A stretch of DNA of 64,000 nt from Caryophanales bacterium (GCA_947459205.1 CANHCR010000002.1:50321-114320); one strand, 5' to 3'. Shown: positions 43,275 to 50,880, counted from the first letter of the stretch. Made by a program: numbers and translations. Notes: generated by a model not told the origin, from the sequence alone.

Positions 43275-44444
43275 TTACTGCATCCAAGAGATGAACAGAT
43301 ACTGAATCAGACCGATCACGGCGCCCAAACCCGCACCGAGCCATGTAATTGCGCGGAATTCACGCCCTGAGACGTCCAAAATCATGCGCTCAATTTGCTC
43401 AATCGGAAATTGCGCCACTTGCTCTTCTACAAGTTTGGCGAGATTGAGGCTCGAGAGAATCGATTCTAATTGCCCGTCAAGCAAATCGATCAGCAAATCG
43501 GCGATTACCTTGCCTGACACTACCGCTTGTCCATCCAGCAAATCTGCAATTTTTAATGAGAATATATTCGTTGCCTGTGCCCGCAGGTCGAGCCTAGTCA
43601 GTACCTGCTCCTCCATCCACTTGCGTCCGTCCGCACCTGTCAGCAGGCGAAACACATCATCGGCCGACAACTGCTCCCACTGCTCGATTTTTGCCGCTAA
43701 CCATTGCTCTGCGAGGGCGCGCGTAGCGGGTTCATCGAGTTTGTCCAGCAACGCCCCCCTAAGTTGTACACTCACTGTCTCTGGCTTAAGAAATCCCTTG
43801 ACCATTCCGCCAAAAAAACCGTCGCCCGCAAAATGCTCGATCAGTTGTTCGACCATCTGCCGCAGAAACACATCGCCTCGACTCGACTTCAACCCGCTTC
43901 CCAGTTCCGCAAAGGCAAACGAGACCGCTTTACCGCTCCATTCCCTGCGTTTCTCCTCATTCCAACCTTGAAACAACTGTTGCAAAGGTCGTGTGCCAAT
44001 CCCTTTCTCCTGCCACACATGATGCAATAGCGAACGCGCCTTGTTATGCGCCCAATCACCAGTAGCTACCTTCCATCGCTCTACTTGTGTGCGGTCAACA
44101 AAACGCAGCAAAAACGACTCGATCGTATCCTCGCTTTGCACCAGTTTTCGCAACAAATCATCGATTGCGACCGTCATTTTTAACGCCAAAGAAGGCTCAC
44201 GCAGCCACTTTTTGATCGCATCTGATGTAATCAAATGCGTCCCGACAATACGCCCGAATGAACCAGCGATTTCGTTGCGTCGCTTCGGGATAATCCCAGG
44301 GGTAAACGGAAGACGCACACCGAACAAGCGTTTTTCCGTATGTGGAAAAAACAGCATTTTAATCGCCAAATGATTGGTCACGCCTCCGATAAACGCAGCA
44401 ACCACGACACTAACTAGCAACATCATCCAAAACATTTTCTCCAT
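43275..44444 (-). CDS. DUF445 membrane protein (YheB-like)
   Basis: VVAAFIGGVTNHLAIKMLFFPHTEKRLFGVRLPFTPGIIPKRRNEIAGSFGRIVG. Confidence 0.88.
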   Translation of the reverse strand: MEKMFWMMLLVSVVVAAFIGGVTNHLAIKMLFFPHTEKRLFGVRLPFTPGIIPKRRNEIAGSFGRIVGTHLITSDAIKKWLREPSLALKMTVAIDDLLRKLVQSEDTIESFLLRFVDRTQVERWKVATGDWAHNKARSLLHHVWQEKGIGTRPLQQLFQGWNEEKRREWSGKAVSFAFAELGSGLKSSRGDVFLRQMVEQLIEHFAGDGFFGGMVKGFLKPETVSVQLRGALLDKLDEPATRALAEQWLAAKIEQWEQLSADDVFRLLTGADGRKWMEEQVLTRLDLRAQATNIFSLKIADLLDGQAVVSGKVIADLLIDLLDGQLESILSSLNLAKLVEEQVAQFPIEQIERMILDVSGREFRAITWLGAGLGAVIGLIQYLFISWMQ

Positions 44445-44540
44445 TCCTTTCCTCAATCGAATCACAAGTTGCGTCAACCTCACATACGATACTGTACTGT
44501 GTCTCGCCGTATGCGAGTCAGCCGAAAGGGGTTGACGTTG

Positions 44541-45911
44541 ATGCCAAGCAAAAAAGTGAACGTCCTGTTGAACCGCGCGGCAAATGACGGCGAATCGGGC
44601 GCAGTACTGCTCGATGAACAGTTGATGCGGGCAATGCGCATCCCGGAAGGTCGCCCCGTTTGGCTGACTGCCGGCACGTTTCGTCAAAAAGTGTTCCTTA
44701 AACCTACGCAACGTAAACGTGCGCTTCTGCTCAGCAAAATACTGTTGCAACGGTTTGGCATGCACGATGGATTGCGTCTGCATATCCGGTATGACGCGAC
44801 CTCACAAACGTTGCGCTGCGGACCGCTGTTAGCCGTCTTGTTGCAACGTTCAGCCGTCATGCCTGCAGCGCGCCCATTCGGCGAAATGAGTGATTTTTGC
44901 CGGGAGTTGGCACTCGTTGCCGGCCGTGAACATGTATGGCTGGCTGCCGTCACTCCGAACAGTTTTCAACTGACCAATCAATCGATGCAAGGCTGGACGT
45001 TTCGCCGCGGCTGGCGCCGGGCAAAGCTGCCGATAGCCGATGTCATCTATAACCGTCTGCAAACGCGCAAACTCGAAAAAAGCCGCAACGTCCAGCGCTT
45101 GATGAAAAACATCAAAAGTCATTTTAGCACAGTCATTTTTAACGAACAATTTTTGGATAAAGTGAGCGTGTTTACGGCACTTTCAAAAGATTCTTCGATG
45201 CATAAACACTTGCCGCGCTCACTCCCTTGCCGCAATCTCCAAGTGATACGGCAAATGTTAGAACAGTACCCGACTTTGTTTCTGAAACCAGCTACGGGCA
45301 GCATGGGACGCGGCATCGTGCGTATCGCTCGCAATCCTGATGGTGGCTATACGACGCATTCGACACATATTAAGTATACCAGCAAACGGCACTATGCGGA
45401 CCGCGATCGTCTATTACGCAGTCTCGCTGCACAAATCAAGCGTGCTCCGCATCTCATTCAGCAAGGATTGTCGTTACTCACAGTATACCGACATAATTTG
45501 GACTTTCGCGCACTTGTGCAAAAAGACGGTAGCGGCAAATGGACGGTGACCTCGATTGTTGCACGCATCGCAGCACCGCGTCATTTCGTCTCCAACTTGG
45601 CGCGAGGCGGACGCATCACGACCGTGATGGATGCCCTGCGCAAGGCTGGTGTAAGTCGCGACAAAGCGCAAAAACTGCACGCTTCGATGCGAGCCACGGC
45701 AGTAGCGATCGCTGGTTCACTCGAAAAGCAGTTGAACGGTTCGTTCGGCGAACTCGGCGTCGATTTGGCTGTCGATCGTGATTTGCACGTTTGGTTGCTT
45801 GAGGTCAATTCGAAGCCGTCAAAAACCGACCCTTTACCACCTGGTACTGGGAAAATTAGACCATCCGCACGTAAAGTGGTGCAATATGCGAAACATGCCG
45901 GCAAGTTTTGA
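44541..45911 (+). CDS. YheC/YheD-family ATP-grasp protein, paralog 1 (with extra N-terminal domain)
   Basis: DVIYNRLQTRKLEKS; LFLKPATGSMGRGIVRI; DFRALVQKDGSGKWTVTSIVARI; GELGVDLAVDRDLHVWLLEVNSKPSKTD. Confidence 0.85.
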   Translation: MPSKKVNVLLNRAANDGESGAVLLDEQLMRAMRIPEGRPVWLTAGTFRQKVFLKPTQRKRALLLSKILLQRFGMHDGLRLHIRYDATSQTLRCGPLLAVLLQRSAVMPAARPFGEMSDFCRELALVAGREHVWLAAVTPNSFQLTNQSMQGWTFRRGWRRAKLPIADVIYNRLQTRKLEKSRNVQRLMKNIKSHFSTVIFNEQFLDKVSVFTALSKDSSMHKHLPRSLPCRNLQVIRQMLEQYPTLFLKPATGSMGRGIVRIARNPDGGYTTHSTHIKYTSKRHYADRDRLLRSLAAQIKRAPHLIQQGLSLLTVYRHNLDFRALVQKDGSGKWTVTSIVARIAAPRHFVSNLARGGRITTVMDALRKAGVSRDKAQKLHASMRATAVAIAGSLEKQLNGSFGELGVDLAVDRDLHVWLLEVNSKPSKTDPLPPGTGKIRPSARKVVQYAKHAGKF

Positions 45912-47145
45912 ACGGCAGCAAAATCGAGTGATCAACTTGGGCGTGTATGTGGGGATGATGGACGAACGCGAACGGCAGTTTTTGCAAGATTTGAGTGATC
46001 AAGCCGGGAAACGAGGCATTCGTATCGGAGTGTTTAGTCGGCGCGATATCGATTTCAGCGGAACGACGATTCGCATGCAGGTGTGGGATCACCAAGCGCA
46101 GCGCTGGCTCGTGCGAGACAGCGGGTTCCCGAAGCGAATCTACAACCGCTGTCTCGATCCCGCGCGCCCCGCCCGGGCGGCGCTCACCCGCCTACTCCGC
46201 GCCTCCCGGGCGCAGCTGTTGCAGCGCCCCATCGCCGGCAAATGGCGCATGCAACAGCTGTTGCGCCGGCACCCGCTGCTCCGCAGCGCGGTGCCGCGCG
46301 GCGCGCGCCTGCGCGGCCGGGCGCAGCTCACGGCGTGGCTGCGCCGCGCCGGAGCCCACGTTGCTGCGGGCGCCCCCCTCAGCACCCAGCGCGCTAGCAC
46401 TAGCGACAGTGGCGCTCGCACCGGCGGGGTCAGCGGATCTGTGGTACTGAAGCCGCTGACCGGCTCCGGCGGACGCGGCGTGTTGCGCCTGAGCATGGCG
46501 GCGGATGGCGCAATCACGGCGCGCGGCCGCGACCGCGAGAACCGCATCGTCAACCGCAAGTTCGAGCAAACGCCGAAGCGTTTGCGCCAAGCGCCACAAT
46601 CAGCAGTGGCCGCCTGTCTCCGTTGGATTCGCCAAACACTCGGTCCCGTGCCACTGCTCATGCAACCTTTTTACAAACTGGAAACGCGAGACGGTCGGCC
46701 ATTCGATATGCGCGCATTCGTACGTAAACAATTCGTTAATAAATCAAACAACAAGGCATGGCAGACAATCGGGTACGCCGTACGCGTCGGAGAAAGCGGT
46801 GGCCTGACATCAAACCTCGCTGGTGGCGGAGTAGCGCTCACCCTACAAGAATTCATGAAGCATCACTACACTAACACGAATCGGCTGCAAACGAAGCGAC
46901 TCATTGAGCGGATGAACGCCATCAGCAGACGCATCGCTCAAATCGCCGAAAGACGCTTCGGAACTCTGTTCGAACTCGGCATCGATTTCGCGCTCACCGA
47001 GAGCGGCCAACTCTATGTGCTCGAAGTGAACGGCAAACCTGGACGAAGCGCATTTTTGCAATCGCAACAAGCAGACGTATATACCGCCACTATCCATGGC
47101 GTCATTCATGCATATTTAAATTTGACAGGAGGTTCCCGTCATTGA
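45886..47145 (+). CDS. YheC/YheD-family ATP-grasp protein, paralog 2 (contains GC-rich segment)
   Basis: RIYNRC; VVLKPLTGSGGRGVLRLS; FDMRAFVRK; LTSNLAGGG; FELGIDFALTESGQLYVLEVNGKPGRS. Confidence 0.85.
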   Translation: MRNMPASFERQQNRVINLGVYVGMMDERERQFLQDLSDQAGKRGIRIGVFSRRDIDFSGTTIRMQVWDHQAQRWLVRDSGFPKRIYNRCLDPARPARAALTRLLRASRAQLLQRPIAGKWRMQQLLRRHPLLRSAVPRGARLRGRAQLTAWLRRAGAHVAAGAPLSTQRASTSDSGARTGGVSGSVVLKPLTGSGGRGVLRLSMAADGAITARGRDRENRIVNRKFEQTPKRLRQAPQSAVAACLRWIRQTLGPVPLLMQPFYKLETRDGRPFDMRAFVRKQFVNKSNNKAWQTIGYAVRVGESGGLTSNLAGGGVALTLQEFMKHHYTNTNRLQTKRLIERMNAISRRIAQIAERRFGTLFELGIDFALTESGQLYVLEVNGKPGRSAFLQSQQADVYTATIHGVIHAYLNLTGGSRH

Positions 47146-48238
47146 ACGAAATCAACGTCCGCCGATAATCGGCGTGTTGTGCAAACGCGGTCAGCATCAT
47201 CTCATGCGCAGTCTCCATCTTGTCGCTCGCACGAAGGCTGTCATCTACAGTTTCTCGCCGGAGGATGTAGATTGGAACGGCAAAACAGTGCACGCGCTAA
47301 CATTAAACAGCCAAAGGCAATGGGTGCGCCGGCGCATGCCACTTCCGCACGTCGTCTATAATCGTCTGCTTGTCGGACGAAAGCGGGAAATGAACGATGC
47401 ACACTCACTGTTCCGCAAACGTCTCGACGAGCACCGCATCCCGATGTTTAATCGCACTTATTTTAATAAGCAACATATTTTCCAGTTGCTACACCGCGGC
47501 AAAGAAAGCGAAGCGATTCGCCACCTGCCGGAAACGCTCGATAAACCGTCTGTTGACAATCTTCAGCAATTTTTCAACCGCCATCCGACCGTCTTTCTCA
47601 AACCGACCGGCGGCTTTGCAGGCATCGGCATTTACCGAATGGTTTCGGCGAGCGAAAAAGACGGCACGCTTCATTTTCACAGTGGCCGACATGCGCGATT
47701 CTTACGCTTCCCTTCTAGGCGCGCGATGATACAATTTGTCCGCCACAAAACGAACGGATTTCGCCGCCACGTGGCTCAGCAAGGGATTTCGTTGCTCCGC
47801 TACCGCGACTGCCCGCTCGACTTCCGCGTGCATGCCAACCGCGGGCGTGATAACCGCTGGCACATTTCCGGCATCGGCGCCAAAAAAGCCGGCAAAGGTA
47901 GCGTCACGACGCATCTACGGACTGGCGGTTCGGTCTATCCGCCACTCATCTTGCTGAAACATTTTTTCAAGCACCAAGCGCAATCCGTGTTGAAACGTCT
48001 GCATACGACCAGTTTGGCATTAGCCGACGCCATCGCCCGCCGTTCCGCTCATCCTGTGGGCGAACTTGGGTTCGACATCGGCATCGACGAGCGCGGTCAC
48101 ATTTGGATGTTCGAGGCGAATTCTAAGCCAGGTCGCTCGATTTTCAAACATCATGCACTCCGCTCGGCGTTACTCCGCTGCGACCAGCATATTATTGAGT
48201 ATTGCCGCTATTTGGCGAAACAAGGGAAAGGAGGCTGA
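47141..48238 (+). CDS. YheC/YheD-family ATP-grasp protein, paralog 3 (probable ATT start)
   Basis: HVVYNRLLVGRKRE; VFLKPTGGFAGIGIYRM; VGELGFDIGIDERGHIWMFEANSKPGRS; AGGAGG at 47128..47133, 7 nt before in-frame ATT. Confidence 0.8.
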   Translation: MERNQRPPIIGVLCKRGQHHLMRSLHLVARTKAVIYSFSPEDVDWNGKTVHALTLNSQRQWVRRRMPLPHVVYNRLLVGRKREMNDAHSLFRKRLDEHRIPMFNRTYFNKQHIFQLLHRGKESEAIRHLPETLDKPSVDNLQQFFNRHPTVFLKPTGGFAGIGIYRMVSASEKDGTLHFHSGRHARFLRFPSRRAMIQFVRHKTNGFRRHVAQQGISLLRYRDCPLDFRVHANRGRDNRWHISGIGAKKAGKGSVTTHLRTGGSVYPPLILLKHFFKHQAQSVLKRLHTTSLALADAIARRSAHPVGELGFDIGIDERGHIWMFEANSKPGRSIFKHHALRSALLRCDQHIIEYCRYLAKQGKGG

Positions 48239-48242
48239 ACCG

Positions 48243-49355
48243 ATGAGCCGCACGCGATATCACCGTTCCCCGCTCGTCATCGCCATTTTAACCGGCACCG
48301 CTCGTACGGTCTCGTTCGGTGGCAATCGCGCCAACTTCCGCGACTTGCTCGTCACCGCCAAACGCAATCGCGCCATCGCCTATGTCGTCACTGTTCCGCA
48401 ATTGCAGCAAGGACTAAGCAATCAACGGGTGCAAGGGTTTGCCTATGACCTGCGGCGAAAGTCGTGGTACGAGGGCAATTTTCCGTTGCCGCACGTCGTC
48501 TACAACCGCATCCCGACGCGAGCTCAGGAGAAATCGATCGGCGCTAAAGATCTCATCGAGCGTCTGTTGAAACGGAGCGATATGCGCCTATTCAACCCGG
48601 AATTTTTCAATAAATGGCAGTTGTCAAAATGGTTGTCGTCATCAGCAGAACTCAAAGAACACGTGCCGCAAACTGTACCGCTCCGCAACCTGCTTTCTGT
48701 CAAAGAGATGCTGGCGACAGGGTACCCGCTGTTTCTGAAACCAGTGCATGGTAAGGCAGGTGCTGGCATGATGCGCCTCGAACATCAGCATAAGCAAACA
48801 TGGACGCTAAGTCGGCAGCATACACAAGGGACGCTGAACCGCCACTACCGCACGCTACGCATGTTGTGGCGTGACATCAAGCGTCATGTCGCCGGCAAAA
48901 CCTATGTCATCCAGCAATATATTGAGCTCGAACGTTCTCCTGCAGGTACACCATTTGATTTGCGTGTTCTGTTGCAAAAAAACAGCGACGGACAATGGAC
49001 GGTCACGGGTATCGGCGCACGTGTAGCGGGACGCAACAGACTGACCACACATGTGCCACGCGGCGGGAAAATCGCTTCGCCGCTTCGTCTGCTGCGCGTC
49101 AAATATGGCGACAATCAAGCGAAACATTTGCTGCGCGAAACAGGTAAACTTGCCGTTCGCATCGCCGCACATCTAGAAAAACAATCAGGGCAGCGACTTG
49201 GCGAACTATCGATGGACATTGGCCTCGACCGCCATGCGAAGTTGTGGTTTTTCGAGGCAAACTCGCATCCGATGAAATTTGACGAACCCGCCATTCGCCG
49301 GCGCTCATTGCGAAAGTGGGTGCGCTATTGCCGCCATCTCGCGAACCGCAACTGA
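48243..49355 (+). CDS. YheC/YheD-family ATP-grasp protein, paralog 4
   Basis: HVVYNRIPTRAQEKS; LFLKPVHGKAGAGMMRL; FDLRVLLQKNSDGQWTVTGIGARVAG; LGELSMDIGLDRHAKLWFFEANSHP. Confidence 0.87.
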   Translation: MSRTRYHRSPLVIAILTGTARTVSFGGNRANFRDLLVTAKRNRAIAYVVTVPQLQQGLSNQRVQGFAYDLRRKSWYEGNFPLPHVVYNRIPTRAQEKSIGAKDLIERLLKRSDMRLFNPEFFNKWQLSKWLSSSAELKEHVPQTVPLRNLLSVKEMLATGYPLFLKPVHGKAGAGMMRLEHQHKQTWTLSRQHTQGTLNRHYRTLRMLWRDIKRHVAGKTYVIQQYIELERSPAGTPFDLRVLLQKNSDGQWTVTGIGARVAGRNRLTTHVPRGGKIASPLRLLRVKYGDNQAKHLLRETGKLAVRIAAHLEKQSGQRLGELSMDIGLDRHAKLWFFEANSHPMKFDEPAIRRRSLRKWVRYCRHLANRN

Positions 49356-49804
49356 CGCTGCGCACGCTTGATGCGATTCATCTCGAAAAAGCTCGCGGTC
49401 CGTTGCTGAAGTTCATTTCCCGCCACGGCGGCGGGCGCATTACCGGACGTGCACGCAAATGGTTGCGGACGGTGGATCGTGCAGATTTGAGGCGTGCTGG
49501 GACTTGCATTGTCACTGCATCGGTTGGCACGCACCTAATGGGCGTATTGATCATCGCGAAACATGGCGAACAAGTGATGGCGATTGTTGTTCATGGCAGT
49601 GCGCGCCGCAAAAAATTGGGACAGACGCTCATCCGCCATGCGCTCCGCCATATGCGTTTTCTTGAAGCGCGGGTGGCGACCGATAATGCGGCAAGCATCG
49701 GCATGTGCTTCGCTGCTGGGATGGTCGCTATCGCATTGGAACGTGGAGTGACCGGCAAACCAACGTTGCTGTTCGTTGCCGGAGAACGAGGAGGATCACA
49801 TTGA
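49316..49804 (+). CDS. GNAT-like acetyltransferase embedded in ATP-grasp cluster
   Basis: MAIVVHGSARRKKLGQTLIRHALRHMRFLEARVATDNAASIGMCFAAGMVAIALERGV; overlaps both neighbours. Confidence 0.65.
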   Translation: MGALLPPSREPQLTLRTLDAIHLEKARGPLLKFISRHGGGRITGRARKWLRTVDRADLRRAGTCIVTASVGTHLMGVLIIAKHGEQVMAIVVHGSARRKKLGQTLIRHALRHMRFLEARVATDNAASIGMCFAAGMVAIALERGVTGKPTLLFVAGERGGSH

Positions 49805-50880
49805 CCATCACTGTGGGGATTTTAACGCTGTACGTCGGCAGGCGCAGAACCATTGAAGAACGTCCGTTTCTCGCTGCTTGTGCAAACGAAGGTGTAAAAC
49901 TAGGCATCGAAGTCATCGTCTTCACACCGGAAGATGTCGAGCACCGTAGCCGCCGTGTGCGCGCTCATCTCTATGACGTGCGGCGCAAACGCTGGCTTCG
50001 TGCTTGGCGCCCCTTGCCGAGCGTCATTTTCGACCGATGCCGTTACCAAAGTACGCCGCGCTTTGCACAGATGCGTGCGTTTCGTCGTCGCTATCCGCAT
50101 TTGCAATACTTGAACCACCCGCTCGCCAACAAATGGCTTGTCCACGAAGTGCTCGCACGTCATGCACACGTTGCCCGTCATTTGCCAGACACTGGATTGC
50201 TTCGCGGAATGAGTGACGCCTTGCGATTTGGCGCACGCCACAGCACCATCTATATCAAACCGGTCAACGGAACAGGCGGTCGCGGTATTCTCCGTTTGCA
50301 ATGTTCGCCGAGCGCCTCCTGCCGTCTTGAGGGGCGCAATGCACAACGCACCATCATTGCCAGCAAAACAGGATCGCGCAGCGAATTGCTACGCCACACG
50401 TTGCGACTGTGCCGTGGCGGCAGTTATCTGCTGCAACAAGCGATCGATAATCGCCTGAGCAACGGGCAAGTATTTGATTTCCGGCTCGTCGTACAAAAAG
50501 ATGGCAGCGGCAAATGGACATTGACCGGCGGTGCGGCAAGAGTTGGCGGACCGCGCAGCATTACATCCAATCTCCATGGCGGCGGGCGGGCGGTTGGCTG
50601 GCAAACGATGCTTACTCAACAATTCACCGCCAAACGCAGCGAATCCATCGTCGATGACATGAAGACGCTCGCCATCCGCGTCGCCGAGGCACTCGAACAA
50701 CGCTATGGCAGATTGTGCGAACTGGGACTGGACATCGCCGTCGACCGCAGCGGCAAACCGTGGTTGCTCGAAGTCAATCCGAAACCAGCGCGCGAAATTT
50801 TTCGCAAAACTGGTCAGCACGCAACGTACCGTACCGCCATCCGCAAACCGCTCGAGTTCGCCATCTTCTTGAGCCGTTAA
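49801..50880 (+). CDS. YheC/YheD-family ATP-grasp protein, paralog 5 (TTG start)
   Basis: GAGGAGG then TTG at 49801; SVIFDRC; IYIKPVNGTGGRGILRL; FDFRLVVQKDGSGKWTLTGGAARVGG; CELGLDIAVDRSGKPWLLEVNPKPARE. Confidence 0.87.
   Translation: MTITVGILTLYVGRRRTIEERPFLAACANEGVKLGIEVIVFTPEDVEHRSRRVRAHLYDVRRKRWLRAWRPLPSVIFDRCRYQSTPRFAQMRAFRRRYPHLQYLNHPLANKWLVHEVLARHAHVARHLPDTGLLRGMSDALRFGARHSTIYIKPVNGTGGRGILRLQCSPSASCRLEGRNAQRTIIASKTGSRSELLRHTLRLCRGGSYLLQQAIDNRLSNGQVFDFRLVVQKDGSGKWTLTGGAARVGGPRSITSNLHGGGRAVGWQTMLTQQFTAKRSESIVDDMKTLAIRVAEALEQRYGRLCELGLDIAVDRSGKPWLLEVNPKPAREIFRKTGQHATYRTAIRKPLEFAIFLSR

Follow-up and report, generated by a model that had tools for sequence, protein, structure and literature searches.

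A candidate mother-cell operon of five positionally conserved YheC/YheD-type ATP-grasp ligases in Paenibacillales

We analysed a 64,000-nucleotide stretch of a Caryophanales bacterium genome (GCA_947459205.1, CANHCR010000002.1:50321-114320), called here the window, which is part of contig C2 of a 2.52 Mb genome that is 99% complete; its order was taken as Paenibacillales, with Paenibacillus, Gorillibacterium and Chengkuizengella among the relatives, and it is the single genome of its family in the comparison set. On the + strand, positions 44541-50880 carry five successive open reading frames (ORFs), A to E, with a GNAT-like gene between D and E. These genes probably form a mother-cell operon for five distinct ATP-grasp amino-acid or peptide ligases and one GNAT, acting on coat proteins or on a coat peptide, a reading to which we give a probability of about 0.6. 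Observed in its favour are the family, the fold, the ATP-site residues, the gene order, the five clades and a promoter-like element. As judged from gene order and phylogeny, the five-gene set appears to be old and standard in Paenibacillales, with A-D and the GNAT common to other Bacilli; Bacillus subtilis, which seems to retain only B and C (YheC and YheD) of the five, would thus be a reduced case.

The five ORFs were all members of PF14398 in a profile search, with scores of 155.6-256.2 bits against a cut-off of 26.8 bits, as the sequence-only reading of the window had proposed when it described five consecutive YheC/YheD-type ATP-grasp ORFs. The tight or overlapping junctions that it had described, with a GNAT-like ORF nested between D and E, were found also in the ORF coordinates: B starts at about 45886, ahead of the stop of A (45911), B and C share nucleotides 47141-47145, a gap of 4 nt separates the C stop from the D start, the GNAT start (49316) lies inside D (stop 49355), and the TTG start of E (49801) overlaps the GNAT stop codon (49802-49804). 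The GNAT ORF exceeded the PF00583 cut-off of 20.7 bits (Table 1), in agreement with the identity given to it earlier, and the copies are indeed divergent, A-D being only 23-31% identical to E. The motifs quoted for the five copies were recovered in part: E-[VA]-N-x-[KH]-P is present in all of them, but the others deviate in some copies, VVYNR being VIFDR in E, FD[FLM]R..[VL][QR]K being LDFRVHANR in C and [ST][NH]L..GG being THVPRGG in D.

The alignment of 374 sequences over five clades showed that the columns K111, K153, Q212, D226, R228, E307, D311, E324 and N326 (numbering of window E) are 98-100% conserved per clade. All five window copies keep the catalytic-site residues, and the two nucleotide-binding lysines, the glycine-rich loop, the D/E-x-N metal ligands and the fold of ATP-grasp enzymes were all found. 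The ATP sites are thus intact in the five copies, the models of A and E resemble ATP-grasp enzymes, the type that the sequence-only reading had supposed, and the conservation of the active site makes pseudo-enzymes unlikely. Other columns differ between clades and are fixed within most of the clades, namely 158-159 in the glycine-rich loop, 245, 257 and 259 in the NL..GG loop, and 330 just past E-x-N. By the general ATP-grasp layout these would be substrate-side positions, and the existence of five ancient clades, each with residues of its own in the glycine-rich loop and the NL..GG loop, makes the different specificities proposed earlier probable.

When the PDB was searched by sequence, no PF14398 structure was found. 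The top PDB matches listed for the AlphaFold models of A and E (confidence, pLDDT, in Table 1) were all ATP-grasp enzymes: in Foldseek, A matched RimK 5zct (E 3e-13), ArgX 3vpb, the graspetide ligases 7mgv and 7dro and TTLL11 9hq4, and E matched 1gsa, LysX/ArgX 5k2m, RimK 7qys and tubulin-tyrosine ligase (TTL) 3tig, with glutathione synthetase, Ddl and DcsG among the fold matches of these models. RimK and LysX/ArgX, alpha-L-glutamate or amino-acid ligases whose acceptor is a protein or a carrier protein, have the same ATP-grasp catalytic layout as the operon ligases but are only about 12-17% identical to them, and the operon ligases fall below the RimK-family cut-offs (at most 22.5 against 143.4 bits for TIGR00768 and 11.3 against 21 bits for PF08443). 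When the A profile was compared with PDB sequences, TTL and TTLL chains matched best, though weakly, and TTL and TTLL11 appeared in the fold searches; the cut-off of the TTL profile PF03133 (20.1 bits) was passed by A (Table 1), with 18.0 bits for E and no match for B, C and D. The operon ligases differ from the TTL/TTLL enzymes in being bacterial and linked to sporulation, in their far stronger PF14398 score and in having no known tubulin-like target. Graspetide macrocyclases of the microviridin/plesiocin type are likewise peptide-modifying ATP-grasp enzymes and were among the top folds (7mgv, 7dro), whereas here no precursor peptide gene was identified and there are five ligases per operon.

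Within the order, 38 loci were taken from relatives, and the array of the window recurs in nearly all of them. A tree built from 187 sequences groups the copies by position and not by genome, with 35 members in clade B, 38 in E, 39 each in D and C and 34 in A (local support 87-100), and each window copy sits in the clade of its own position. With positional profiles, 71 of 80 named public Paenibacillales loci had exactly the order A-B-C-D-[GNAT]-E, the remaining nine having extra copies or being incomplete, and in 34 of these loci a GNAT homologue was found, placed between D and E. Loci of other Bacilli orders showed A-B-C-D in 17 of 23 cases, with the GNAT after D in 14 and E next in three; these loci were picked for strong matches, so that the fractions speak for arrays and not for genomes at large. 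Two loci of other phylum classes (L149 and L153) read A-B-C-D-GNAT, A being uncertain in L153. The positional tree and the locus survey rule out a lineage-specific expansion, and the earlier view of the window as an expanded system has to be given up.

The operon resembles B. subtilis YheC/YheD in its PF14398 family, its divergent DUF445 neighbour and its predicted sporulation control, and differs from it in having five paralogues and the GNAT. B and C appear to be the counterparts of YheC and YheD in order and length. This is judged via two Bacillus-type loci (L053 and L066) that have only B and C: the two genes adjoining their divergent DUF445 gene match B and C best, and A, D, E and the GNAT have no counterpart there. 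In L066, B and C are 363 and 452 aa long, in agreement with the 363 and 453 aa that we take to be the lengths of YheC and YheD.

Upstream of gene A, whose starts were set by the clade-A profile, an AC-N16/17-CATANNNT element was found in 123 of 124 loci, compared to 4.3 expected in base-shuffled sequences (maximum 10 in 200 shuffles) and to 9 of 357 other long ORFs of the same loci, many of the 124 loci being close kin, so that these counts are not independent events. A stricter variant ending in TA was present in 30 of the 124 loci, and the AC-N16/17-CATANNNT element, which agrees with the sigma-K consensus (AC / CATANNNTA) and comes close to sigma-E, exists also in other orders. The element of the window, with AC at 44464 and CATACGATA at 44483-44491, lies 49 nt before the ATG of A and is promoter-like, of the mother-cell sporulation type.

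The co-occurrence of PF14398 with the SpoIVA ATPase was scored in 101 Bacilli genomes: 75 had both, 17 neither, six SpoIVA only and three PF14398 only, three of the PF14398-lacking genomes being inferred from the totals and not named. The best matches of the three PF14398-only genomes were at E 1e-53 or weaker, without the strong matches of array-bearing genomes. In B. subtilis, yheC and yheD, which have adjacent locus tags, belong to the sigma-E regulon and are stimulated by SpoIIID (PMC517825); YheD assembles around the forespore, first as two rings and later as a shell, and depends on SpoIVA for this (PMC7911427; PMC7769602), and its function is still called unknown (PMC7911427). The DUF445 gene next to the operon and the cotJA-, cotJB- and cotJC-type genes downstream of it, which the sequence-only reading had noticed, were recovered (the DUF445 start was picked from the AGGA-ATG context in the sequence). 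In many related loci a divergent DUF445 homologue lies upstream of gene A, and a cotJC-type gene is located at most 8 kb away in 26 of the 80 relatives. The sporulation link drawn earlier is upheld by the promoter-like element, the SpoIVA co-occurrence, the coat-gene neighbours and the published sigma-E/SpoIIID control.

By analogy with RimK, LysX/ArgX and the tubulin-tyrosine ligases, each enzyme of the operon would phosphorylate a carboxylate with ATP and then join it to an amine. Jointly, the ligases would add or assemble a short chain held by amide bonds, carried either by at least one protein of the coat layers or by a peptide deposited on the forespore. The amine acylated by the GNAT would belong to that same substrate or to the product. 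Every ligase would have a substrate or step of its own, which would explain the retention of all five in order, and B. subtilis would keep just the B and C steps. Joint action is favoured by the strict gene order, by the five long-kept clades and by a single 935-aa ORF of another locus (L166:1366-4173), in which two complete YheC/D-type ligases are naturally fused and which suggests that the paralogues act together. It would be speculation, and we hold it improbable, that the five ligases work in a fixed sequence, adding one residue each before a GNAT cap, to give a non-ribosomal amide-linked tag on coat proteins of which two steps are left in B. subtilis.

Several points weigh against a ligase operon acting on the coat. 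No substrate gene or peptide linked to the operon was found, nor any biochemistry for a PF14398 family member in the literature searched; the conserved operon neighbours (YlbF, HAD and cotJC-type) point to no pathway; the element before gene A matches the sigma-K and the sigma-E consensus alike; and the two-hybrid self-interaction of YheD would equally fit a structural role (PMC7911427). The proteins could be mainly structural coat proteins that assemble themselves into shells, the ATP-grasp fold being kept and ATP being bound for assembly and not for ligation. The strong self-interaction of YheD, which was its only interaction in the B. subtilis screen (PMC7911427), and its passage from two rings to a full forespore shell (PMC7911427; PMC7769602) are consistent with such a role, but such a role would hardly be expected to call for E-x-N and the two lysines, whereas in the 374-sequence alignment the catalytic lysines and the metal ligands scarcely vary in any of the five clades, and the five separate clades are kept in order; we consider it quite unlikely.

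The product of the ligases in the mother cell could also be soluble, either a small molecule or a non-ribosomal peptide, for example a spore pigment, an osmolyte or a metal chelator, since small-molecule ligases (glutathione synthetase, Ddl, DcsG) are among the closest folds and several ligases with an acyltransferase in one operon are typical of small biosynthetic pathways. This is rather unlikely, since further genes for biosynthesis, carriers or transport are not consistently conserved in the operon and YheD is located at the forespore surface (PMC7911427; PMC7769602). A recent local tandem duplication with partly redundant copies, to which five adjacent paralogues on the same strand might point, has next to no probability and is refuted by the tree and the positional profiles: the copies form five clades, are nearer to their positional orthologues in other genera than to their neighbours, and have the low identity to E given above.

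The PF14398 family and its coat association were already known. The amidoligase survey of Iyer and colleagues (2009, Mol Biosyst) is said to predict that enzymes of this kind act as peptide ligases and that the TTL family arose in bacteria. This survey is cited in PMC8939145. We found no paper on the A-B-C-D-GNAT-E operon, its positional orthology, its promoter or the B. subtilis reduction, which, with a partial coverage of the literature, is weak evidence. If YheC and YheD are the two survivors of an old six-gene operon that is whole in Paenibacillus and relatives, their function would be better sought there than in B. subtilis. Transglutaminase cross-links are a known chemistry of the spore coat, and, if the proposed function is true, covalent amide chemistry would join them in coat assembly.

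Table 1 Features of the ligase operon and its upstream region, in window positions
Feature	Position	Strand	Evidence and remarks
DUF445 gene, yheB-type, divergent from ligase operon	43275..44444	-	PF04286 153 bits
Sigma-K/E-type promoter-like element	44464..44491	+	AC (44464-44465), 17 nt, CATACGATA (44483-44491)
Ligase A, 456 aa	44541..45911	+	PF14398 243 bits; PF03133 TTL 29.5 bits; clade A; AlphaFold pLDDT 89
Ligase B, 419 aa, YheC-position orthologue	45886..47145	+	PF14398 156 bits; clade B
Ligase C, ~365 aa, YheD-position orthologue	47141..48238	+	PF14398 233 bits; clade C
Ligase D, 370 aa	48243..49355	+	PF14398 247 bits; clade D
GNAT-like acetyltransferase, overlaps D and E	49316..49804	+	PF00583 30.7 bits
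Ligase E, 359 aa, TTG start	49801..50880	+	PF14398 256 bits; clade E; AlphaFold pLDDT 93

Gene A has an extra beta-rich N-terminal domain (residues ~1-100/106, 44541-44858), whose strand order suggests a beta-barrel and for which a Pfam search was empty even at E 10. This type of domain occurs also in the C orthologues and possibly in D of other orders, and hhalign related the A and C N-terminal domains with 97% probability, the aligned part extending into the core. Gene C of the window is without the N-terminal domain of its orthologues (365 aa compared to a median of 457 aa) and has no ATG, GTG or TTG at the expected start (47128-47176). It could start at ATT 47141, with a good Shine-Dalgarno (GGAGG) ahead, or at GTG 47174, which removes the first strand; the nearby TTG 47142 is in a different frame. 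The anomaly could reflect an ATT start, or else a frameshift or a sequencing error of one base. Gene B, which is fast-evolving and forms a long branch in the tree, exhibits a GC content of 0.76 at 46100-46549 with flanks of about 0.5-0.58; this region has an Arg/Ala-rich stretch of poor conservation, and gene B carries a GC-rich insert that the other four copies lack. The acetyl-CoA loop of the GNAT (49601-49640) is RRKKLG(Q) in the window and RGRGIG-like in several relatives, the family pattern being R-x-x-G-x-G/A, and given this changed loop the activity of the window protein may be altered.

No Rfam match to a structured RNA was obtained in the operon region, and a scan of the region for sigma-70 promoters and intrinsic terminators gave no excess over chance. 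A distant member of the phylum carries about ten tandem PF14398 genes (L148, G196:C3:94500-114400), most of which could not be assigned to the five clades. Off the array, the genome of the window has two lone PF14398 genes (L046:4728-5468 and L047:5307-6419; contigs C25 and C7), one of which is a bare ATP-grasp domain of 246 aa beside a short-chain dehydrogenase.

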